Positions 21,630 to 40,761 of a stretch of DNA of 64,000 nucleotides are shown in pieces. This stretch comes from an uncultured Candidatus Actinomarina sp. Its GTDB lineage: Bacteria; Actinomycetota; Acidimicrobiia; Actinomarinales; Actinomarinaceae. A program made the position numbers and the translations under genes. The notes under the pieces are model-generated. The model searched no databases, was not told where the DNA came from, and saw only the letters and a program-made list of their open reading frames with translations. Position 1 is the first letter of the stretch. Each line of letters starts with the position of its first letter. The stretch is taken from positions 74,473-138,472 of the forward strand of contig CACNFT010000003.1 in assembly GCA_902619825.1 (NCBI GenBank), in the 5' to 3' direction.

Positions 21630-22982
21630 TTACGATTTTTTTAAATACTGATTGCCTACGAAAAAATAAAATAATAGTGGGAAGTGGGCATTTTCCATCG
21701 AACTATCAAAAAAAGATACAAACATTACTGATGTAGAAAATATAATCATTTCAAAAAGTTGGTTATTTTTTTTAGCAGATTGAAATAGGGAGTAGTAAAA
21801 AGTAAAAAATACTAATAACTGTAAAAAACCTCCTCTCAAGAAAATAGTCAAGAAGTAATTATGTACATGTTCATTGAGTCCATCCAGCCCTCTCCTATCA
21901 TTTCCATCCGCAACACCGATAGTATTTACTAAATTGTTTTCAATAAAAACATTGAATTTAGATTTATATCCTATCCCGTAAAACAATTTATTCTCTTGAT
22001 AATTATCCTCTATTGCATCTTGCCAAAGTTGTAACCTCCAATTTAAGTTTCCATCTCCTGAGAACAGTCTTTTTTCTGATATGTAAAACAGTGGATAGTC
22101 ATCTTTATATTTTGAAAATTTATACTCACCTAAAGTTTTAAATGCATCAGGTATTTGTTCGATTGTTTCCTCGGAAAACTCAACTACTACGTACCTTTGT
22201 GACAGAAAAGTTGAAACAATCAATAAGATTGATACAAATAAGAAAACTATTATTCTTCGAAAGTTAAACCTTAGTATTTCTTTTCTGTAAAGAAAAAGCT
22301 CATAAATTACAAAAATTAAAATTGAAATCAAAGCTGCTCTGCTTTTATATAAAAATAGTGGGAGAAATATGGATAAATTGACTAAAAATAATTCAAAACC
22401 ATATTGATTATGTTTATAAAATCTATTTAAAAAATAAATTAGAATAGCAAAGTTTATAACAATGTCAGAACCTTTATGGGGTTCATATTTATCAGAATAC
22501 GAATAAAAGAATTCAACTATATTTTCTGGAAAGTCATATATTGCGACAAGATATATTATTAATAAAGAAATTTGTAATAAGATTGAGTATGGCCTTCTGA
22601 GGGTTTTGAGCTTTGGTAAAGTTAGACCTAGAAACAAAAAACCTATACTCCAAATATAAGAGCTTGCCTTATAAGTGTAAACATTAAATAAATTGCTTCC
22701 TGTAAAAACTACCGTCATCCCAAAAGTTAATAAAACCAATACTGAAGTTAGAAAAATACTTTTGTATTTTTCCTCATAGATAGGTTTAAATATTATTAAT
22801 GTAATTAAAAAAATTAGGGCTGAGAACGCCATAACTAATTCACCAAGTCTAAACATCCAAATTTGGATTCCCAAAAATGATCTAGTAAAGATAATTGATA
22901 AAAATAAAAATGTTATAACTAAAGTATTTAAATAATTGTTTTTAACATAATATTTTTCAATATAATTTTTTAGTGTATTCAT
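21630..22982 (-). CDS. O-antigen ligase/polymerase-like membrane protein
   Basis: 450 aa polytopic; GLNEHVHNYFLTIFLRGGFLQLLV resembles the Wzy_C/O-antigen ligase H...L motif. Confidence 0.75.
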   Translation of the reverse strand: MNTLKNYIEKYYVKNNYLNTLVITFLFLSIIFTRSFLGIQIWMFRLGELVMAFSALIFLITLIIFKPIYEEKYKSIFLTSVLVLLTFGMTVVFTGSNLFNVYTYKASSYIWSIGFLFLGLTLPKLKTLRRPYSILLQISLLIIYLVAIYDFPENIVEFFYSYSDKYEPHKGSDIVINFAILIYFLNRFYKHNQYGFELFLVNLSIFLPLFLYKSRAALISILIFVIYELFLYRKEILRFNFRRIIVFLFVSILLIVSTFLSQRYVVVEFSEETIEQIPDAFKTLGEYKFSKYKDDYPLFYISEKRLFSGDGNLNWRLQLWQDAIEDNYQENKLFYGIGYKSKFNVFIENNLVNTIGVADGNDRRGLDGLNEHVHNYFLTIFLRGGFLQLLVFFTFYYSLFQSAKKNNQLFEMIIFSTSVMFVSFFDSSMENAHFPLLFYFFVGNQYLKKS

Positions 22983-22984
22983 TA

Positions 22985-24088
22985 TTAAGGTTTTATTAAT
23001 CTGTATTCATTTTCAATCTTTTCATTATTTCTGAGGACCATAATAAGGGCCCAAATACATAACAATGTTCCATGTAGGTCGGATTGATTTTCTCCATTTG
23101 TTATCTGTACGCCGTAATAATGTGTCTGAGATTTATCTTTATAGTAGGAAAATCCACCATCCGAAGAGTTATATAAAATATTTAATTCTTTAACTATCTC
23201 ATTCATTAGTTGGTTGACTTGCTTTTTTCTATAACTTGTTTGTTGTGAACATTTGTACAAAACATATATAAAATCAACAACATCACAGCCTTCCATTATT
23301 GGTTTGTTGTTAAGACAAAAATCTATTAATTTATCTGGATAATGTATTTCTTGATCAAGCCAGTCGAGTCCCGATATAACTTTCATTGCACCATTAATTA
23401 TTTCTCTTTCATGTTTAGGTTTTTGCATAAAATAAGAGCCCGTTTCTTTGTCTATAATTTTTTCTAAAAATAAAGATAATTCTTCCGAATAATCTTTATT
23501 TTGCGTTTTTGAAAAAACGCATATTGAAGAAAATTGAGCCCCTGCATTCCAAGGTTTTGACCAATCAAGTTTATTTAAATATTCAGTAATTGAATTTTCA
23601 TTAAGTTCTAATTCAAAATTTTTTTCATTTTTATATCCAATTTGATATAAGGTAGAAATCGCTTGCTTTGTATCTGCATTGATAGCATTTTGTAATTTTG
23701 TCTTTTTTGAATCATATTTAACATTTGTTAAAAGTGAAAGAATCGATTTGACTGTATATTTAAAGTCTTCTTTAAAAGGTAGATTTTTGTAATACTTTAA
23801 AAGTGCCTCATCTATAAATGAATTTTTCGGAAAATTTTTATTTTCTTTTTGATATGTATTTAAGTATTTGGCCCATTTATCAATTCTATTTTCATAGTCA
23901 ATCTCCAATTTTTTAGTCATATAAAGTATTTTTAATGCATAGGTACTAAATCCTAAATTGAGTTGGCCACCAGAATTTGTTAGTCCGCTTACCGATGGAA
24001 AAAATTCAAAATTATTTTCTTTTTTTAATGTATTTAAAAATAAGTAAGAACATTCAATTTTTTCTGTATATTCCGCATGACTTTTCAT
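22985..24088 (-). CDS. protein resembling alpha/alpha-toroid (prenyltransferase/terpene-cyclase-like) fold, unknown function
   Basis: Repeated helical segments with DGGFSYYKD...DLHGTLLCIWALIMVL; glycan-locus context. Confidence 0.45.
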   Translation of the reverse strand: MKSHAEYTEKIECSYLFLNTLKKENNFEFFPSVSGLTNSGGQLNLGFSTYALKILYMTKKLEIDYENRIDKWAKYLNTYQKENKNFPKNSFIDEALLKYYKNLPFKEDFKYTVKSILSLLTNVKYDSKKTKLQNAINADTKQAISTLYQIGYKNEKNFELELNENSITEYLNKLDWSKPWNAGAQFSSICVFSKTQNKDYSEELSLFLEKIIDKETGSYFMQKPKHEREIINGAMKVISGLDWLDQEIHYPDKLIDFCLNNKPIMEGCDVVDFIYVLYKCSQQTSYRKKQVNQLMNEIVKELNILYNSSDGGFSYYKDKSQTHYYGVQITNGENQSDLHGTLLCIWALIMVLRNNEKIENEYRLIKP

Positions 24089-26128: not shown

Positions 26129-27106
26129 ATGCAAAATATTTTGATAACTGGAATCACTGGCCAAGATGGTATTTTTTTAGTCGATAGATTAATGAAATCG
26201 TATAGTGATATAAATATTCTTGGTGTTTCAAGAAACAGAGATCAAGAAAATTTTTCCAAAAAGCTTTCAACGTTAAATAAATATAATTTAAAGAATCTGA
26301 ACTTAAAAAATATTAACCTATTAGATCTAAAAGAAGTAGAAGAAAATATATTGAAGTTTAAACCTGATAAAATTTTCAATTTAAGTGGACCTAGTTCAGT
26401 GTATGAATCAATACTCTATCCTGAAAAAACAATGAATGAAATCTGTAAAATTTTTGAAAATATTACTCAAACTCTTATTAGTAATGATTTATTTGTTCCT
26501 TTTTTTCAAGCTTCTTCCTCCGAGATGTTTGGACAAAATGCTAATGAATGTTTGAATGAAACTATTCAATTTAATCCCAACTCACCATACGCAAAAGCAA
26601 AACTGATAAATCATGACAAAGTAATTGATTACTCAACAAAGTACAATTGGAATATTTACTCAGGAATTATGTTTAATCATGAGTCTGAATTTAGAAATCA
26701 TAAATACCTGTTTATGAAAGTAATAAATTCAGCTAATTTGATAAAAAATAAAAAAGTAAAAAAACTTACTATTGGTAGTCTCGATTATAAAAGAGACTGG
26801 TCTTTTGCTGCAGATGTTGTAGAAGGAATAATCAAAATAATGGAAAAGGGGAAGAATAGTTGTTATGTAATTGGATCCGGTGTTTCCTATTCTATTGAAA
26901 ATTTAGTTGAAACGGTATTTGAATACTATGGTCTTGATTGGAAAAAATATGTGGATGTAGATGAAAAATTGTTACGCCAGGGAGATCCAAAAGAAGTTTG
27001 CTCAGATCCAAAAATTCTTAAGGATGAGTTTGGTTGGAAGTGTAATTACAGCTTTTATGATTTGATTGATAGATGTATTAAGAAAAATTATTATAAATCG
27101 GAGTAA
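26129..27106 (+). CDS. GDP-mannose 4,6-dehydratase-like SDR (divergent paralogue)
   Basis: ILITGITGQDGIFLVDRL...ASSSEMFGQNANE...SPYAKAKLINHDK...MFNHESEFR...KRDWSFAADVVE. Confidence 0.8.
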   Translation: MQNILITGITGQDGIFLVDRLMKSYSDINILGVSRNRDQENFSKKLSTLNKYNLKNLNLKNINLLDLKEVEENILKFKPDKIFNLSGPSSVYESILYPEKTMNEICKIFENITQTLISNDLFVPFFQASSSEMFGQNANECLNETIQFNPNSPYAKAKLINHDKVIDYSTKYNWNIYSGIMFNHESEFRNHKYLFMKVINSANLIKNKKVKKLTIGSLDYKRDWSFAADVVEGIIKIMEKGKNSCYVIGSGVSYSIENLVETVFEYYGLDWKKYVDVDEKLLRQGDPKEVCSDPKILKDEFGWKCNYSFYDLIDRCIKKNYYKSE

Positions 27107-27767
27107 TACCTTTTTTTGCACAAGCAAAATAATATTCTTGCTCACTTTGAAATTTTGAAGATATATTATCTTTCATATTCAAATAATATAAAGGTTCTCT
27201 AAGACTTTTTACTTTGAAACCTTTCTTTATGATTTCTAAAAATAGCTTGTAGTCTTGTGCGAAATAGAAGTTTTCGTCATAATTTCCACATTCATTAAAC
27301 ACTGATTTCTTAATTAACAGAGTTCCGTGAATAAAAGGGTTTTTAAGTTTCAATATTATACTGTTAGGAATATAAAAACTATAGCCTGGGATTATCCTTC
27401 TCGTATCAATTTCTTTTGCCCTAGTAGTGCAAACGTCGAAATTTTCATTTATTAAATATTTTATTTGTTCTTTAAATCTATTTTTGTCCGAATAATCGTC
27501 GCAATCCTGTCGAGCAAAAAATTCGCCGCTTGCTTTAGTTGCCAGAATATTTAAAGATTTTGTAAGACCTAAATTTTCATTATTTTTAAAAACTTTTATT
27601 CGAGAGTCAGCGTTTTTATAATGATCAAGTATGTCAATTGTTCCATCATTAGAGCCATCATCCATTATTAAAAACTCAAAATCATCATAGGTTTGAACGA
27701 GAATACTTTTTAGTGATCTTTCTAATGTTTCTTCACCATTCAAAACTGACATTAAAACTGAGATCAT
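27078..27767 (-). CDS. GT2 glycosyltransferase
   Basis: MISVLMSVLNGEETLERSLKSILVQTYDDFEFLIMDDGSNDGT...RQDCDDYS. Confidence 0.92.
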   Translation of the reverse strand: MISVLMSVLNGEETLERSLKSILVQTYDDFEFLIMDDGSNDGTIDILDHYKNADSRIKVFKNNENLGLTKSLNILATKASGEFFARQDCDDYSDKNRFKEQIKYLINENFDVCTTRAKEIDTRRIIPGYSFYIPNSIILKLKNPFIHGTLLIKKSVFNECGNYDENFYFAQDYKLFLEIIKKGFKVKSLREPLYYLNMKDNISSKFQSEQEYYFACAKKGITPIYNNFS

Positions 27768-28918
27768 TATTTTATCAAATCGTTAAATTTTTTAAGTATT
27801 AGATCTATCTCAAAATTTTTTTTAAAGTAAGCTAATATTTTTTTTCTTTCACTTTCAACAAATTTATCGTCAAACAACAAATACATTTTTGTTATTAAGT
27901 CATCATAATTATATTGTGCAAAACTTAACTTATAATCATCAGGAAAATATTCCTTCATTCCACCAAAATATGGATAGATTGTAGGTATTCCCATTGATAA
28001 AGCTTCGCTTAGTAATCTTGGCTGCCCCTCATACATTCTGGTAGCTGTTACGACTGCTCTTGCTTTACTAATTATTTTTAAAGTCTCCGAGTTATTTAAT
28101 TCATCTAAAAATGTAACATTTTTTAGTTCAAAGCTCTCAAGCATTTTGGAATTTAAGCTCTTTTTTGCTCCTATGATGACTAATTCAAATTCTTTATTTT
28201 CAAACTTGTCCCAACTTTCGAACAAATCATATATTCCCTTTTCTGGAGTTAACTGACCAGCATAAACTAGTGTTTTACTGTCCTTTATATTGTTTAGCCT
28301 TATATTTTCATCAATTTTTATTGGATTATGCAAAACCTCAACATTATTTATTCCCAATTTATTTAGATAATCTTTGTGGAATTTGTTGAGTACAACAATT
28401 GTGTTTTTAGTTGATAACAAAAATTTAAAATACCTTTTACCATACAAAAGAATAAATACTGACTTTAAATAAGAGTTGGTAAAATACTTATTTAAAAATT
28501 GATACTTTTTTTTCTTAAAACCACATCGCGGACAAAAATCAAAATTTTCAATATGACTACTTGCCAAAAAACTCTTAGTGCAATCATATCTAAAGTTATG
28601 AATTTTTAAAATAGTTTGAATTTTGTTTTTTTCTAAAATTTCAAAAATTCCCAAGCTAGCTTTAAACCAGGTGTTGTGGACATATGCTACTTCTGGTTGA
28701 AATTCTTTAATAACTTTTTTAAGTTGTTTGTTTGATCTATAATTCTTCCCATTAAAAAAAGATATAAAGTCAAAAATATTTAAGATTTTCGTATTTTGAA
28801 ATTCTACGTATTTAACTTCATAATTGTTTTTTAATAAACTAACTTCTTCTTTAATATTGGCGTCTTCTCCACCAAAATTTGTATATTTTGTGTGTATTAC
28901 AATTACTTTTTTTTTCAA
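27767..28918 (-). CDS. GT4 glycosyltransferase
   Basis: VYAGQLTPEKGIYDLFESW...TATRMYEGQPRLLSEALSMGIPTIYPYFGGMKEYF. Confidence 0.88.
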   Translation of the reverse strand: MKKKVIVIHTKYTNFGGEDANIKEEVSLLKNNYEVKYVEFQNTKILNIFDFISFFNGKNYRSNKQLKKVIKEFQPEVAYVHNTWFKASLGIFEILEKNKIQTILKIHNFRYDCTKSFLASSHIENFDFCPRCGFKKKKYQFLNKYFTNSYLKSVFILLYGKRYFKFLLSTKNTIVVLNKFHKDYLNKLGINNVEVLHNPIKIDENIRLNNIKDSKTLVYAGQLTPEKGIYDLFESWDKFENKEFELVIIGAKKSLNSKMLESFELKNVTFLDELNNSETLKIISKARAVVTATRMYEGQPRLLSEALSMGIPTIYPYFGGMKEYFPDDYKLSFAQYNYDDLITKMYLLFDDKFVESERKKILAYFKKNFEIDLILKKFNDLIK

Positions 28919-28925
28919 ATTAATC

Positions 28926-29804
28926 CTATTTTATAAATAATTTTTGCTTAAAGTCATTCTTAATTGTTTTCATAAAATAGACTATTTTTTCTTTAAACGT
29001 TAGAGTGTGGAATCTTACATGTTCAGCTGGAGCTGGAATAACCCAATCACTCAAGATATCTAAGTTTTCAAAGTTGGAATTAAATAAAATATGTTCAGAA
29101 ACATGCTCTGGATTGCTTTTGTCAGTCATATACTCGATTTGTAAAAGTTTGTTGTTAATCAGTTTATACATTCCTGCTCCACCAAATGCACTTATTACAT
29201 TAAAGTTTTTAGATTTTATTTTTTTTTCTGTCAGCTGTTTTCTAAATATTAAAAAATAATTCAAAAAGAAACTTCCAAAAAATATTACTTTTTTTATTTT
29301 ATGAATAAGTAGTGATGAATTTAGATTGTGCCATCCCTTTGCTCTTAATGCAAAAATATCATAATAATTTGGTGAACTAATTGGAAAAATCGCATCATAT
29401 GTATTTTGATTTACAAAGGAAGTTAAAATTTTATGAAAGGATTCAATGTCTGTTAATTCAAAAAGATTTACGTCTAAATCAATTGGAATATAAATTAAGT
29501 TGTCATAATTTTTTAACTTTAATTCATCAAGACATAAATTTCTTGAAAGAGTTATCCTTTCAATTCTCGAATTATAATTTTTTTCTAAATCATCTAAATC
29601 CCTGTAAACAATAAATTCATTATCTTTTTCATATTTAGATATTATTTCTTTCGTGCCATCTGATGAGTCTGAATCAACAATAAAAAGACTAATGTTTACA
29701 TCTTTATAATTATTCCTCATTGAGAAAATTTGTTTTATGTTTTCCTCAATTGTATTTATACAATTTTTTGACAAACCACAAAAAGCTACATTTAAATTGG
29801 TCAT
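28926..29804 (-). CDS. glycosyltransferase (GT-A, Anp1/CAP59-like)
   Basis: VAFCGLSKNCINTIEENIKQI...SLFIVDSDSSDGT...RITLSRNLCLDEL...YIPIDLDVN. Confidence 0.65.
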   Translation of the reverse strand: MTNLNVAFCGLSKNCINTIEENIKQIFSMRNNYKDVNISLFIVDSDSSDGTKEIISKYEKDNEFIVYRDLDDLEKNYNSRIERITLSRNLCLDELKLKNYDNLIYIPIDLDVNLFELTDIESFHKILTSFVNQNTYDAIFPISSPNYYDIFALRAKGWHNLNSSLLIHKIKKVIFFGSFFLNYFLIFRKQLTEKKIKSKNFNVISAFGGAGMYKLINNKLLQIEYMTDKSNPEHVSEHILFNSNFENLDILSDWVIPAPAEHVRFHTLTFKEKIVYFMKTIKNDFKQKLFIK

Positions 29805-29883: not shown

Positions 29884-31593
29884 TTATGGAATTGTTATCT
29901 CTATCAAATCACCTTGGCCAGTGGTCACAAGAGTCTTGTTAGGATCTTCTGGATGAACAATTAGGGCTGTAATGTATGAATCAAACTCCAAAGGTAAGGG
30001 AAATTGAAAAAGCTCATCATTTTTAAAGTCATATACAAACAATTCTTTGCTAAGATAGTCAGCAAAAATATAGTGTTCATAATATTTACCATTTGAATCA
30101 CTGACCACATCTCCACCAATTAATGCTGCCCTGTATACTTCGCTTCCATTATGGCTATAAAATACTTGTGGTTTAGATGAATTTAATGTTGCATACTCAT
30201 CAAGGTTAACGGGTGTTTCATTATCCCAAAAATATAATGGAAAGTAAGTAAATGATGTATTTTTTAGATCACCTTCATAAATAGGCCAACCAAAAAAACT
30301 TGGTCCTGATGATTGATCTAAATCTACAACATTTACCTCTTCTGTAGTATTGAATCCTATGTCAGGAACGAAAAGAAAGTTTTTATAGATAGAAGTTTTC
30401 CAGGGATTTCTCAATCCAAAAGCAACAATATTGTTAAGTGGAGCTGTTTTATTTGTATCACTTATCAATGGTATTTCACCATTTGTAAATGCTTTTTCAA
30501 GTAAAATTACTTTTCCTTTATAGGAAGTTGTATCATTTGAGTTAAATCCATTTCCCATATCGCCTATTGACAAAAGAAAGTCTTGAAAATAGTCTGACCA
30601 AATTATATTTCCAGAATAATGACAGCAGTCGTTGCTTGGAATGTTTAGAATTACTTCTGGTTCAAACTCGTCAGTAATTTTTGGATATTTTTCAACAACT
30701 AAGCTGTTATCAAGACCGCTATATGTTGTAAGAAAAAAATTTTCGTTGGGTTCGAATGCTATTCCAAATAATCCGCTTTCAAAATAATTTTCAGGATCGT
30801 AAAATACTTTTTCTTTTAAATCAAGAAATAGTTCTTTTTGATTTGTATCTAGATCAAGAGTGTAGATTTCACCCTCACTTTTTAAAATGTATAGTTTGCC
30901 ATCGTTAAAAAGTAAATTCGAAGTCCTTTCGCTAAAGTTTTGTAAAACACTAAAGCTTGAACCCTTTCTACATTCAACAAAATTTGGGCTTCCTAACCAA
31001 GAAGCACAATCATTTTCATCTTCATATAAAACACCAACTGGTAGGGAGGACTCTATTATATCGGTTTCTTCCTCGTTTACTACAACCTCAACTTCAGCAC
31101 TGTCTCCATTGCCAAAAAATAAAATACTTAAGCTTAAAGGTATCAAAAACAAAAATGCGTATCTTCCTATTGTTGAACTGGAGTCTCTTTTAAGTAAGAA
31201 CATAATTCCAGTAAATAAAAGCGGATACAATAAAATACTAAAAATTAGTATGGCTCTTGATAAGTTATATGCTCTAAATAAATATAAAAATCCAAATAGC
31301 ACTGTTGTATTTATAAAAAATAATTTTACAAAATTATTAATAATACTCTTGAATTCATTGCTGTTAAATGATTTTTCTACACTGATAAAAATTATAATTG
31401 AAGAGAATATTGCGACCGTAATTGAAATTATGTTATAAGTAATACTGAAACTGTATGGAAAACCAATTCTTTCAAAATCAGATAATATGTTATTAAAATT
31501 TTGTCTTGTTGCTTCAAAATTGCTTCGAGCGAAATAATCGGTTAAAAATTTGTAAAATGAAAAATTTGTTATAAAAAGTGTAATTAATTTCAT
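29884..31593 (-). CDS. N-terminal polytopic membrane domain fused to PQQ-dependent sugar dehydrogenase (GSDH/HHIP-like) beta-propeller
   Basis: C-terminal ESGLFGIAFEPNENFFLTTYSG...CCHYSGNIIWSDYFQDFLLSIGDMGNG...VAFGLRNPWKTSIYKNFLFVPDIGFNTTEEVNVV; four or five hydrophobic helices in the first ~180 aa. Confidence 0.85.
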   Translation of the reverse strand: MKLITLFITNFSFYKFLTDYFARSNFEATRQNFNNILSDFERIGFPYSFSITYNIISITVAIFSSIIIFISVEKSFNSNEFKSIINNFVKLFFINTTVLFGFLYLFRAYNLSRAILIFSILLYPLLFTGIMFLLKRDSSSTIGRYAFLFLIPLSLSILFFGNGDSAEVEVVVNEEETDIIESSLPVGVLYEDENDCASWLGSPNFVECRKGSSFSVLQNFSERTSNLLFNDGKLYILKSEGEIYTLDLDTNQKELFLDLKEKVFYDPENYFESGLFGIAFEPNENFFLTTYSGLDNSLVVEKYPKITDEFEPEVILNIPSNDCCHYSGNIIWSDYFQDFLLSIGDMGNGFNSNDTTSYKGKVILLEKAFTNGEIPLISDTNKTAPLNNIVAFGLRNPWKTSIYKNFLFVPDIGFNTTEEVNVVDLDQSSGPSFFGWPIYEGDLKNTSFTYFPLYFWDNETPVNLDEYATLNSSKPQVFYSHNGSEVYRAALIGGDVVSDSNGKYYEHYIFADYLSKELFVYDFKNDELFQFPLPLEFDSYITALIVHPEDPNKTLVTTGQGDLIEITIP

Positions 31594-31650: not shown

Positions 31651-32484
31651 TTACAATTCTAAAATTTTTTCCTCGATAGTCTTAAATGATTCTTCAGTAT
31701 TGTCTTTTTCTTGAAATGAAATGCTGTCTCGTCTTTTTCGATGAAAATGATAATGTTGTCTTCTTGTTTCTATATAATTGTTGTTTTTAAGCCATAAATA
31801 CGAAATTAAAAACTGATCAGCAGCAAAAAGTAATCTTTCAGAAAAAGAGAGGCCTTCTTTCATAGTTGATAAAAAATTGGGTTTATAGACAATAAAATTT
31901 CCGATATTTATAAGCCATCTAGAATTTTTTTGTTTCGTAATCTTTACTTCATTTAAAATTGACTTTTTAATAAGATCCTTATCAAATCTAAAATTTTTAT
32001 CTTGAAATATAACTCTATACTTTGTTCCATTATGGACTTTGCTTAAGGGAATGCTGAGATAAGGTTTTTGATAAAATTGATAAATTTTTGATGGTAAATA
32101 TAAACTATCTTCATTGAATAATTTTAAAAGATCATATTTGATAAACTTGTCTAAATTTCTCATTGGGATATTATCAGAATCAATTTGGTAAACTATTTCC
32201 TTTGAGCAATTTTCTATAGCAATATATTTATTTACAAAAGGACCACGTCTTTCCAAATTATTAACAAATTTTATTTTTTTATCTGGATATTTTTTTTGGA
32301 ATTTTTCAACTGTTTTCAGATATATTTCTTTTTCTTGAACGTTTGAGGCATCATCACTTATCACAACCTCAGTTACAATCTCATTTTTTAAGGAGCTTGA
32401 TAAAAGTTGTTCTAGGTATTTAGAAGAATTATAAGTTGGTATTGCGATACTTATATTTTGGCTTTCGAAAGTTTTTTTATTCAT
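31651..32484 (-). CDS. GT2 glycosyltransferase
   Basis: ISIAIPTYNSSKYLEQLLSSSL...VVISDDASN...YQIDSDNIPMRN. Confidence 0.85.
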   Translation of the reverse strand: MNKKTFESQNISIAIPTYNSSKYLEQLLSSSLKNEIVTEVVISDDASNVQEKEIYLKTVEKFQKKYPDKKIKFVNNLERRGPFVNKYIAIENCSKEIVYQIDSDNIPMRNLDKFIKYDLLKLFNEDSLYLPSKIYQFYQKPYLSIPLSKVHNGTKYRVIFQDKNFRFDKDLIKKSILNEVKITKQKNSRWLINIGNFIVYKPNFLSTMKEGLSFSERLLFAADQFLISYLWLKNNNYIETRRQHYHFHRKRRDSISFQEKDNTEESFKTIEEKILEL

Positions 32485-35121: not shown

Positions 35122-36024
35122 TTAGTTCAGCTCAACAAATGATATATAGTTATAATTAAACATTCTATCTGGTGACTCCTTTTCAAATTTTTCAAACTCT
35201 GTTGAGAATTTAGAATCTTTTATTTCTGCAAACAATGGTTCAAGTGCTCGATATTTGCCATCCCATCCACTTACTCCCCATTTTTGATTTTTGTATAAAT
35301 ATATTGGCTGGATTTCATAATAATTTTTAACAATTTTTCTAAATAAAACTTTGTCGACTAAATTTGGTTTTCTTAATTTATTTTGCACATGGTGATAATG
35401 GGTTAGAAAATAAGGCCACGTTGTATTTGCTGTTGTTAACCTGTTTTGTAAGTTTTTTGGTAAGAATTTAAATTTTTCAAACTTATTTTTATATTTATAA
35501 CCTGGCACCATATCGGTAATAGGTTGTCCGTAGTCTGAAAGAATTTTTCTTATCGAGTAAGAATCACCATGTCCAGGAGGGTAATTATCTTCAAATATAG
35601 CATATCTAATACCCCAAGCATTCAAAAACTTGAGTCTATGCATAACATTTGTATGGTCATCAAAAAATACTATCGTTTTGTTGGTATCTAAATCCTCAAA
35701 AGAAATATCTTCTATATCGCCCTCTACATAGTTTGTATTTGAATTTTTGGAAATATATAATCTATTGCTTAAATCTAGATCTACAGAAATCAAATCAATA
35801 TCTGGAATCGAATTTTCAATCAACCAGGTACTGTGGCCTTGCGCTATTCCAGATTCAATAACATGCGAAATATTCAATTTCTTAAGTAAAGCATAGACTG
35901 CAAAAGAGTGATTTATACCCATACCCATTTTGTTATTTTTAATTGGCCTTAAGTTATATACCTCAATAAATTCCGGTAAATACTTTAACAATTCTTTATT
36001 AGAAAAAAATTTATTAAGTTCCAT
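35122..36024 (-). CDS. SAM-methyltransferase-like protein (start trimmed to ATG 36024)
   Basis: VIESGIAQGHSTWLIENSIPDIDLISVDLDL...IVFFDDHTNVMHRL. The ORF track start at 36078 only translates a tRNA fragment. Confidence 0.65.
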   Translation of the reverse strand: MELNKFFSNKELLKYLPEFIEVYNLRPIKNNKMGMGINHSFAVYALLKKLNISHVIESGIAQGHSTWLIENSIPDIDLISVDLDLSNRLYISKNSNTNYVEGDIEDISFEDLDTNKTIVFFDDHTNVMHRLKFLNAWGIRYAIFEDNYPPGHGDSYSIRKILSDYGQPITDMVPGYKYKNKFEKFKFLPKNLQNRLTTANTTWPYFLTHYHHVQNKLRKPNLVDKVLFRKIVKNYYEIQPIYLYKNQKWGVSGWDGKYRALEPLFAEIKDSKFSTEFEKFEKESPDRMFNYNYISFVELN

Positions 36025-36071
36025 TGTGGCCAGAAGCAGAATCGAACTGCCGACCCCTTGTTTTTCAGACA
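36024..36071 (-). pseudogene. truncated tRNA-Phe 3' half (att-like duplication)
   Basis: 48 bp TTGTGGCCAGAAGCAGAATCGAACTGCCGACCCCTTGTTTTTCAGACA matches 36690-36737 with one mismatch (36035). Confidence 0.9.
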
Positions 36072-36194
36072 GAGGCAAACCATTTGTCCTTTCATCATTT
36101 TAACTTATTCGTTGTGAATTATCGCTCATTTGTGAGAGGCTCTAAAACGCAATGAGCAGTAAATAACAGAGACTTCTTTTGTGAGTATGTGACA

Positions 36195-36657: not shown

Positions 36658-36691
36658 GTGACAAAAGTCTTTAATTTGTTTAAAAACCTTG

Positions 36692-36764
36692 TGGCCAGAG
36701 GCAGAATCGAACTGCCGACCCCTTGTTTTTCAGACAAGTGCTCTACCGACTGAGCTATCTGGCC
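36692..36764 (-). tRNA. tRNA-Phe (GAA)
   Basis: GGCCAGATAGCTCAGTCGGTAGAGCACTTGTCTGAAAAACAAGGGGTCGGCAGTTCGATTCTGCCTCTGGCCA cloverleaf, anticodon loop CTGAAAA. Confidence 0.95.
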
Positions 36765-36769
36765 TAATG

Positions 36770-36844
36770 CGGGGACGACGGGATTCGAACCCGCGACCTC
36801 CTGCGTGACAGGCAGGCGTAAACTCCAGACTTTACCACGCCCCC
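36770..36844 (-). tRNA. tRNA-Asp (GTC)
   Basis: GGGGGCG...CCTGC CTGTCAC GCAGG...GGGTTCGAATCCCGTCGTCCCCG. Confidence 0.93.
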
Positions 36845-36916: not shown

Positions 36917-38350
36917 ATGAAAATAAATAATCTTATTAAATATTTTTTTCGGTTCATATTGCTTCAAACAATTTTGACATCTTTGACAATTCTATATTTT
37001 GATAATTATTTAATTTCTAGCCAAGAATTTAAACAAAATATTTACGAAAATTTAGTAGAAGATACTGAAAGATTCTTTCCTTTTATTCCCTATGAATTGA
37101 TAACAGTTGATAGTTTTTTTACAATTATGATTTTCTTTTTTCTAATAATTCTTTATTCGACAAAGTTTTATACCTATGTAAATGAATTGTCATTTTCAAT
37201 AAACAAAAATTTGCTTGATGAGTATTTTCAAATTTATCTTCTCTGGACAAGCTACTTATTTGCTTGTTTTTATGTGTTTAGATTTGAGAATGTCTCTAGG
37301 GGTTATTTATTTCTTTTTTCTGTAATTGTTCCTTTGATTCTGCTCATATTTAGAAATCCAGAATTTTTATCCTCAATACTTGGTAGATCAGTAACGAATG
37401 AAAATTATCTAACTATAAATCTTGACAAGAATTCAAATTTCAGAAATTTGCGGATTATTACATTTAGAAAAGATTTAGGAAATTTTGATTTGGATATAAA
37501 TAATTCAAATAAAATTATCGAGAAAATTGATGAATTAAATAAAACTGAAAAAGTCAACTTAATAGTCATTAATTTAAACACGACAAGAAAAATGAATAAA
37601 CAATTAGAAGAGTATCTAATAGAAACAAATAAAAAAGTGCTTTTAATTTCTACAAATAAACCTGACTTTGATGCAAGCTTTATATATAGACAAGAAATTT
37701 TGGATCAAACTTTTTTTACTTATTTCAATAATGATATTCAATACGGAGCAAAGTACATAATTAAAAGATTCATGGATATAGTTTTAAGTATTTTTGGCAT
37801 TATTATATTTTTTCCGATAATACTTTTAGTTGCTTTTTACATAGTGTTCTTAGATGGATTTCCATTTTATATAAAACAAAACAGGGTTGGTTTGCACGGT
37901 CACATTTTTAGTATGTACAAGTTTAGAACAATGAGAATGAATTCACACGAATTACGTGATTCTTTAGATGAACTTAATCAGTCTGATGGTCCGCTATTTA
38001 AAATACAAAATGATCCTAGAATTATTGATCGACTGGAATTTGTAAGAAAATATAGTCTTGATGAATTATTACAATTTTTTAATGTATTGAAAGGTGAAAT
38101 GTCAATTGTTGGTCCAAGACCTTTATTTGACGATGATACTCAGCTTTTTAATACAAAATATATGAGAAGACTTAATGTATTACCAGGAATAACAGGTTTG
38201 TTACAAATCAATGATCGAAATACTTCAGAATTCGAGACGTGGTATAAATACGATATTGAATATATCGAAAATTGGAGTCTCTACTTGGATATGAAAATTA
38301 TTTTAAAAACTCCTTTTGCAATTTTTTCAAAAAAAATAAGAGGTCTGTAA
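36917..38350 (+). CDS. polyprenyl-phosphate glycosylphosphotransferase (sugar transferase, WcaJ/WbaP type)
   Basis: KRFMDIVLSIFGIIIFFPIIL...IKQNRVGLHGHIFSMYKFRTMR...VRKYSLDELLQFFNVLKGEMSIVGPRP. Confidence 0.95.
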   Translation: MKINNLIKYFFRFILLQTILTSLTILYFDNYLISSQEFKQNIYENLVEDTERFFPFIPYELITVDSFFTIMIFFFLIILYSTKFYTYVNELSFSINKNLLDEYFQIYLLWTSYLFACFYVFRFENVSRGYLFLFSVIVPLILLIFRNPEFLSSILGRSVTNENYLTINLDKNSNFRNLRIITFRKDLGNFDLDINNSNKIIEKIDELNKTEKVNLIVINLNTTRKMNKQLEEYLIETNKKVLLISTNKPDFDASFIYRQEILDQTFFTYFNNDIQYGAKYIIKRFMDIVLSIFGIIIFFPIILLVAFYIVFLDGFPFYIKQNRVGLHGHIFSMYKFRTMRMNSHELRDSLDELNQSDGPLFKIQNDPRIIDRLEFVRKYSLDELLQFFNVLKGEMSIVGPRPLFDDDTQLFNTKYMRRLNVLPGITGLLQINDRNTSEFETWYKYDIEYIENWSLYLDMKIILKTPFAIFSKKIRGL

Positions 38351-38355
38351 TAAAG

Positions 38356-38428
38356 TGGGTCGGGTGGGAATCGAACCCACGACCTTGAGCTTAAAAGGCT
38401 CCTGCTCTACCAATTGAGCTACCGACCC
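38356..38428 (-). tRNA. tRNA-Lys (TTT)
   Basis: GGGTCGGTAGCTCAATTGGTAGAGCAGGAGCCTTTTAAGCTCAAGGTCGTGGGTTCGATTCCCACCCGACCC, loop CTTTTAA. Confidence 0.93.
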
Positions 38429-39583: not shown

Positions 39584-40687
39584 ATGAAATCAGAATTAAA
39601 TTATGTGACTTATCAGACATTTCCAGCGAAAACTGCAAATAGTCTTCAAACTATTACAAATATAAAATATTTAATTAGAAACGGTATAAAAGTCAATCTA
39701 TATTTTCCAATGAGAGAAAAAGAAAGCTCAGATAGTCTTTCTGAGATACAAAATTTTTACCAAATCAATGAATCTTTTGAAGTGTTTGGGTTAAAGCATA
39801 AACTTCCACACGGTAAGATCAAAATCTTTAAGAAATATGCTTTTCAATTTAGCCACTATATATGGTCAAGAAAAACAATTAAAAAATATTTTCACAATAA
39901 AACTGAAAATTATATTTTTACCAGATCTGATTGGATAGCCTACTTTGCTGCAAAGAAAGGAAATAAAGTAATTTTTGAATGCCATCAAAGGTCTAGGACA
40001 AGGGACTTCGTAATTAGCCGAATAGGTAATCTACAAAATGTTACAATCGTATTTTTAAATGAAAACTTGAGAGATTCCTATCCTTCTATCAACAATTCAT
40101 TAGTTTTGCACAATGGAGTTGATCATGAATTATTTGATACACAAAATTTAGAAAAAAGAAAATCTATAGTCTTTGTTGGGAGTTTAAGTAGGTTTAACAC
40201 ATCACGAGGTCTTCCTGATTTTATAAAAACGTACAATGAGGAAAAATTATATAAAAGTTATAATCTGGAGATAGTTGGTGGCAACCAAGAAGAAATTAAA
40301 GAATTAAAAATTTTAATAAATGATTTAAAAATTACAAACTACGTAACACTGCATGGCTATCTTCAGAGAAAAAGTGCAATAGGTATCATCTCAAAATGTT
40401 CTATAGGTTTATTAATTAATAGCGATGAGAACCAACACTCGACAAAATATACCTCACCTTTAAAGTATTTTGAATACTTATATGGGGGTCTTTTTGTGAT
40501 AGCTTCTGACTATCCCTCTCATAGAAGTTTACCTTTCAATAAAATGATTTCTTTTTTTAATCTAAAGGATAAAAATAGTCTTTCAAATGCACTTCAGAAC
40601 CTTCCAAACACTAATTTAGAAAAAAATTATTTGAAAGAAATTACTGTTGATAAAAGGGTAAAAAAAATTATAGAGTTATTTGACTAG
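39584..40687 (+). CDS. GT4-like glycosyltransferase
   Basis: VFVGSLSRFNTSRGLPDFIKTY...SPLKYFEYLYGGLFVIASDYPSHR. Confidence 0.85.
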   Translation: MKSELNYVTYQTFPAKTANSLQTITNIKYLIRNGIKVNLYFPMREKESSDSLSEIQNFYQINESFEVFGLKHKLPHGKIKIFKKYAFQFSHYIWSRKTIKKYFHNKTENYIFTRSDWIAYFAAKKGNKVIFECHQRSRTRDFVISRIGNLQNVTIVFLNENLRDSYPSINNSLVLHNGVDHELFDTQNLEKRKSIVFVGSLSRFNTSRGLPDFIKTYNEEKLYKSYNLEIVGGNQEEIKELKILINDLKITNYVTLHGYLQRKSAIGIISKCSIGLLINSDENQHSTKYTSPLKYFEYLYGGLFVIASDYPSHRSLPFNKMISFFNLKDKNSLSNALQNLPNTNLEKNYLKEITVDKRVKKIIELFD

Positions 40688-40761
40688 CACGCCTGGAGGG
40701 ACTCGAACCCCCAACCCTCTGATCCGAAGTCAGATGCTCTATCCAGTTAAGCTACAGGCGC
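40688..40761 (-). tRNA. tRNA-Arg (TCG)
   Basis: GCGCCTGTAGCTTAACTGGATAGAGCATCTGACTTCGGATCAGAGGGTTGGGGGTTCGAGTCCCTCCAGGCGTG, loop CTTCGGA. Confidence 0.92.

Follow-up and report, generated by a model that had tools for sequence, protein, structure and literature searches.

A phosphoglycosyltransferase-type membrane bundle joined to an HHIP-type propeller in a glycan island of Candidatus Actinomarina

The protein encoded at 29884..31593 (minus strand) of the window, i.e. the whole stretch of 64,000 nucleotides of Candidatus Actinomarina DNA that was analyzed, combines the four-helix membrane bundle of a phosphoglycosyltransferase (Lg-PGT) with a sugar-dehydrogenase-like propeller. This join is real and, to our knowledge, new; no published precedent for a bundle-propeller fusion was found. 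With a probability of roughly 55%, we read the protein as a cell-surface, membrane-tethered aldose-dehydrogenase-like (HHIP-type) propeller, which is held by the PGT bundle near the emerging glycan and serves the glycan of its island.

Results

Architecture and occurrence of the fused gene

The open reading frame starts with ATG and its translation has 569 aa, comprising, according to Pfam and AF2, a PGT-type four-helix bundle, an extra TM helix and a GSDH/HHIP-type six-bladed propeller. Residues 1–145 (31159..31593, minus strand, as are all following parts of this gene) constitute the bundle, which carries an N-x-x-x-D in an outside loop (residues 35–39, N35...D39; 31477..31491) and the FR...SR hallmark at the TM3/TM4 turn (residues 106–113, FRAYNLSR; 31255..31278). 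Outside the PGT-type bundle, TM helix 5 (residues 143–161; 31111..31167) is indicated by an AF2 helix at 141–159, by hydropathy and by the flanking charges. It is followed by an acidic linker with the pair Cys196-Cys208 (30970..31110) and by the propeller (residues 209–569; 29887..30969). The AF2 model, calculated from a 39-row alignment (mean pLDDT 72.6), contains five membrane-length N-terminal helices (2–24, 49–73, 79–108, 111–136 and 141–159) and an additional helix within the first outside loop. Behind them come a disordered, acidic linker and the propeller, the latter with pLDDT mostly 80–95. Residues 1–165 modeled alone reached a pLDDT of 56, and Foldseek returned no meaningful match for them in the PDB.

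Fused genes are present in three of 42 Actinomarina genomes, once each in the genome of the window (G000; 1.08 Mb) and in G063 and twice in G006, and their products are 32–42% identical to each other. Four intact genes in three genomes at this degree of divergence argue for a real gene, and a chimeric assembly was accordingly rejected. The two G006 genes are adjacent and divergent (L170, 9359-12882), share ~35–42% identity with the window protein and go back to an old duplication within a single glycan island. A scan of the genome contigs yielded 80 GSDH loci and no further fused protein, while hydropathy analysis of 71 GSDH ORFs from other loci revealed a multi-helix N-terminus in one only, which is a fused protein. 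Viral contigs held distant GSDHs only and no PGT bundle. A match in G008 (L053), at first sight a further fused protein, was rejected, as the locus holds NADH-dehydrogenase-type membrane proteins.

The N-terminal module is homologous to the bundle of the Lg-PGT

The window also encodes an initiating sugar transferase of the Lg-PGT type (36917..38350, plus strand; 477 aa; PF02397 E 1.7e-58, TIGR03025 E 6.2e-78), whose bundle occupies 36917-37396 (plus strand). The N-terminal ~145 aa of the fused protein are almost certainly homologous to this four-helix bundle. BLASTP aligned both proteins over residues 30–144 (E 2e-6), a span which takes in both the FR..xxSR and the SS-I-GR motifs, and hhalign of the family profiles, fused bundle versus PGT, gave P 7.3e-7. 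The observed profile score of 42.6 lies 11 standard deviations above column shuffles keeping the hydrophobic/polar pattern (n = 300; 13.7 +/- 2.5, maximum 24.2), and the reversed-profile control scored 14.4. The likeness of the two N-termini, which the initial annotation had proposed and for which it had named a profile-profile comparison as the test, is hence significant and beyond chance.

When the 546 ORFs encoded at this locus and at related ones were searched with an HMM of the PGT bundle, PGTs came first, then only fused propellers (window protein, E 3.5e-4) and then decoys, the first at E 1.6. In the reciprocal search, several distinct PGTs scored E 1.5e-5 to 1.9e-4 and the first decoy 0.019. 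Against whole genomes, the PGT N-terminus found the fused propellers next after PGTs in G000 and G006 (E 0.027 and 0.10), and the fused N-terminus found PGTs of G000, G028, G011 and G015 at E 0.2–2.3, which is weak alone. Moreover, the fused bundles by themselves, with no PGT included, were compared with 18,950 NCBIfam models, and a PGT family, TIGR03025 or TIGR03023, was the best match for all four (E 0.009–0.066). These matches are in register, with window protein residues 50–136 corresponding to profile positions 27–113, and the bundle of a genuine PGT scored E 0.041 as a control. Finally, a fused-bundle profile was searched through the genus and then through 296 Acidimicrobiia genomes. Apart from the four fused proteins, its matches at E<=0.01 were limited to four PGTs of Actinomarina and one or two short, weak frames, a single one of 89 aa in the case of the 296 genomes.

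Individual residues are shared as well. N35 and D39 line up with N46 and D50 of the PGT; they are invariant in the four fused proteins, and the PGT counterpart reads N(L)xxD with an invariant D50. Both Arg residues of FR...SR are likewise invariant, in the four fused proteins (R107, R113) as well as in the PGTs (R123, R129). The homology stops at the S-x-I-G-R which closes the PGT bundle just ahead of the DUF, and this closing motif, as S-x-I-G-R/K, is present in the window protein and in one G006 copy. Beyond it, the PGT continues into the cytoplasmic DUF, whereas the fused proteins enter a fifth helix instead. Neither this DUF nor the catalytic Bac_transf domain (PF02397), which Pfam detects in the 36917-38350 protein, is present in the fused protein, in which TM5 and the propeller follow the bundle. 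The reuse of a PGT membrane anchor suggested at the outset thus holds for the four-helix bundle, which tethers the propeller. DUF and catalytic domain are not shared, and the fused protein has a fifth helix that places the propeller outside.

Since the loop ahead of TM5 has three K/R and the linker past TM5 is strongly acidic in all four fused proteins, the propeller should be outside; we regard it as very likely that it is membrane-tethered and located outside the cell. The two Cys residues, 12 positions apart (196, 208), probably form a disulfide; all four fused proteins have them, as do three sister proteins that carry lipoprotein signals, but more distant relatives do not.

Relatives and origin of the bundle

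The sister proteins, encoded in G003, G007 and G062, are the nearest relatives and form one clade with the fused proteins (support 99/98). The tree gives no firm order inside this clade, so that either the bundle or the lipoprotein anchor may be older. A profile of the fused module finds its best Lg-PGT matches in one Actinomarina subclade (G000, G008, G011, G013, G028 and G063). A PglF-like dehydratase (bundle, DUF and PF02719) was considered as bundle donor and dropped, since no candidate occurs among the PF02719 matches listed in the genus, the longest open frame of which has 407 aa. The nearness to one PGT subclade, together with the lack of a PglF-like donor among the matches listed, makes an Lg-PGT of the genus itself the most likely donor, as judged from sequence comparison, and the protein identity of ~30% to the PGT indicates that the fusion is old. 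The window-type PGT bundle had no match in G031, G032 and G033; G031 has a different Lg-PGT of 455 aa, encoded on the same contig as a GSDH lipoprotein.

The propeller and its putative active site

Pfam assigns residues 230–440 to GSDH (PF07995; E 4.2e-6) with 26.7 bits at a gathering score of 25. The propeller of the window protein is divergent, its score being barely over the cut-off, and the relatives from G063 and G007 fall short of PF07995 on their own. Foldseek comparison of the AF2 propeller with the PDB retrieved sGDH, the Asd proteins of Pyrobaculum and E. coli, and HHIP. In a PDB search with the 39-row family profile, HHIPs were the best-scoring solved relatives; searches with the fused propeller alone or with a four-row profile returned nothing. 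The HHIP-like sugar-dehydrogenase propeller recognized in the initial annotation is thus borne out by the Pfam score and by the fold.

His325, Arg395 and Asn396 are invariant across 39 sequences, and every fused protein and sister lipoprotein keeps them together with Asp345. In the 39-row profile alignment, HHIP chains carry a non-RNPW sequence where the fused propellers have the Arg-Asn motif. His325 corresponds to the catalytic His144 of sGDH, and Arg395-Asn396 to its PQQ-contacting Arg228-Asn229. At the level of the motif, an R-x-R near the C-terminus, looked for as a possible counterpart of the PQQ-carboxylate contacts Lys377, Arg406 and Arg408 of sGDH, was seen neither in the fused proteins nor in HHIP-like outgroups (sGDH His144, Lys377 and Arg408 numbered according to PMC6881789). 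The pqqC model TIGR02111 found no gene in the 42 Actinomarina genomes, many of which are incomplete; as a control, it exceeded its cut-off in four genomes when 150 others from the phylum were searched. PQQ would consequently need to be scavenged, or else the propeller only binds. The PQQ dependence assumed earlier stays putative, with the catalytic His and Arg-Asn retained but no pqqC found in the 42 genomes. A second type of Actinomarina GSDH lipoprotein, encoded in G032 (L066, 1210-2886, minus strand), has Ala aligned to the catalytic His, and RNPY; its sequence suggests a non-enzymatic propeller in the genus.

Genomic surroundings

The fused gene lies 57 bp downstream of a GT2 glycosyltransferase gene (31651..32484, minus strand; PF00535) and is followed by three glycosyltransferase-type genes according to Pfam (27078..29804, minus strand), i.e. 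a weak GT2/CAP59-like gene (28926-29804), a GT4 gene (27767-28918) and a GT2 gene (27078-27767), all on the minus strand. A Wzy/O-antigen-ligase-type polymerase is encoded in the same glycan island (21630..22982, minus strand; PF04932 E 2.2e-13), and a GDP-mannose-dehydratase-type gene and further GT genes are nearby. With GT2, GT4 and Wzy-type genes around the fused gene, fused gene and PGT gene indeed share one glycan locus, as had been noted initially. Two further island proteins (22985-24088, 367 aa; 35122-36078, 318 aa) have no Pfam match. tRNA genes stand on both sides of the PGT gene, an arrangement that fits the conserved edge of a tRNA-based glycan island: tRNA-Phe and tRNA-Asp are beside it (36691..36844, minus strand), tRNA-Lys is 5 bp past it (38355-38428) and tRNA-Arg is at 40687-40761. 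In Ca. Actinomarinales, the flexible island fGI1 varies within species, concerns sugar decoration of the envelope and has tRNAs as hot spots, and an outer membrane has been argued against (PMC7771536). The island of the window matches fGI1.

Elsewhere, the setting is similar. In G063, the fused gene is packed, with gaps of ~10 bp, between a GT61 gene and an exostosin-like gene, and the G006 pair adjoins an FkbM methyltransferase gene and a GT2-like gene. Hence, the architecture of a TM module plus GSDH lacking PF02397, which had been suggested as a search target in glycan loci, recurs in four genes of three genomes, and these as well as the G003 lipoprotein gene all sit in envelope-glycan clusters. 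The fused gene is variable island cargo, since G028 has the same PGT (bundle 83% identical) and the same HhH-GPD-type neighbor, but no fused gene. The lipoprotein relatives of G007 and G062 have a DoxX-like gene on one side and a GH1-like glycosidase gene on the other (L173, 9820-12388; L175, 8294-10987; assigned by eye). Genes resembling those for glycerol kinase and glycine cleavage are also near by eye, and there is no glycan island. This is a different, conserved context for the same propeller.

Discussion

Homology, boundary, helix count and charge pattern support a join followed by a flip of the chain. The four-helix bundle, most likely that of an Lg-PGT of the genus itself, was attached where it ends to a propeller of Actinomarina, and an additional helix flips the chain such that the propeller emerges outside the membrane. 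The bundle most likely acts as it does in Lg-PGTs, i.e. as a stable platform at glycan-assembly sites that may associate with itself or with the PGT, a role which we infer from the WbaP dimer structure; it would thereby keep the propeller beside the emerging surface glycan. There, the propeller most likely binds the glycan encoded by the island at its aldose ends or branches, or sugars released from this glycan, and could possibly oxidize these aldoses with scavenged PQQ. On balance, we favor a role directed at the glycan of the island. The propeller might edit lipid-linked glycan by redox chemistry or check its quality, as envisaged initially.

A plain exchange of anchors is the most serious competitor, although we consider it clearly less probable. 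The bundle would be a convenient signal-anchor in place of a lipoprotein anchor, with neither docking nor any special link to glycan assembly. That the G003, G007 and G062 sisters combine the same propeller and Cys pair with lipoprotein signals speaks for this idea, as any anchor would serve, and the location of the G007 and G062 genes outside glycan clusters implies that the chemistry of the propeller need not concern envelope glycan. However, every fused gene lies in a glycan cluster, as does the gene of the G003 lipoprotein, and a mere anchor would not require N35, D39, R107 and R113 to stay invariant over 32–42% identity, three of which (D39, R107 and R113) coincide with invariant PGT positions.

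It is rather doubtful that the propeller is a non-enzymatic, HHIP-like surface receptor for glycan or protein which has lost the use of PQQ. HHIPs being the closest solved relatives by profile score, the failure to find pqqC in 42 genomes and the G032 paralogue devoid of the catalytic His would fit a binder, but neither the fused proteins nor their sister lipoproteins vary at the His, Asp and Arg-Asn residues, whereas HHIP chains are non-RNPW at this site.

A more far-reaching version, which we deem unlikely, holds that the Lg-PGT bundle is a self-standing docking module, through which a redox or sensing propeller associates with the initiating PGT, for example as a mixed dimer, or with Wzx/Wzy and modifies the lipid-linked glycan, or checks it, as it emerges outside. 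As the DUF, which provides the main contact of the WbaP dimer, is missing here, a mixed complex of PGT and propeller is conceivable, yet speculative.

Improbable as well is a membrane quinoprotein dehydrogenase akin to Gcd of E. coli, which would oxidize environmental aldoses with scavenged PQQ and pass the electrons to quinone via its membrane part. The layout of five helices and an outside propeller and the conserved His325, Asp345 and Arg395-Asn396 are compatible with such an enzyme. Nevertheless, the four fused N-termini select PGT families and no Gcd-type or other membrane PQQ dehydrogenase domain among the 18,950 NCBIfam models at E<=10, pqqC was not found in the 42 genomes of the genus, and a gene carried as variable island cargo by three of these genomes is no core respiratory gene. 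Chance likeness of two unrelated, Phe/Ile/Leu-heavy membrane segments in an AT-rich genome is negligible in spite of the weak single-sequence E-values genome-wide (0.03–0.2), given shuffles never above 24.2 versus 42.6, decoy ORFs far lower, four independent NCBIfam matches in register and specificity over 296 genomes.

Our preferred reading, a surface propeller tethered by a PGT bundle, can be set against several known systems. Gcd of E. coli has five TM helices and an outside PQQ propeller, which is eight-bladed; the fused protein resembles it in layout, but propeller and membrane domain are both unrelated to those of Gcd. With the GSDH family, including Asd (YliI) and sGDH (PF07995), the fused proteins share the six-bladed propeller, the catalytic His and the GD and RN motifs; however, the members known so far occur in soluble or secreted form or as lipoproteins, whereas the fused proteins possess a multi-helix N-terminus. 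HHIP, the closest solved relative by profile score, is an animal binding protein that has neither the RNPW motif nor a PGT-type bundle.

Lg-PGTs such as WbaP and WcaJ (TIGR03025/TIGR03023, PF02397) have in common with the fused protein the four-helix bundle, the FR..SR turn, the Asp of the outside loop and the closing S-x-I/L-G-R. In contrast to them, the fused protein lacks the PF13727-type DUF, the re-entrant helix and PF02397 and has a fifth helix and an outside propeller. In the WbaP dimer, the bundles form a central stalk and most contact is made via the DUF; PglF/CapD-like NDP-sugar dehydratases, a precedent for reusing the N-terminus of Lg-PGTs, combine the Lg-PGT bundle with another C-terminal enzyme, and both the reason for the conservation of the bundle and its sharing by these unrelated dehydratases have been called unclear and puzzling (PMC10942596). 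PglF/CapD-like proteins keep the DUF and a dehydratase domain, whereas the fused protein keeps the bundle alone and carries its cargo outside the membrane. Nature has here parted the bundle from the DUF and the catalytic domain and placed it on an outside propeller, always in glycan clusters. This natural deletion experiment argues that the bundle is an independent unit, and with the fused protein one can test directly whether docking of proteins to sites of glycan assembly is a function of this bundle.
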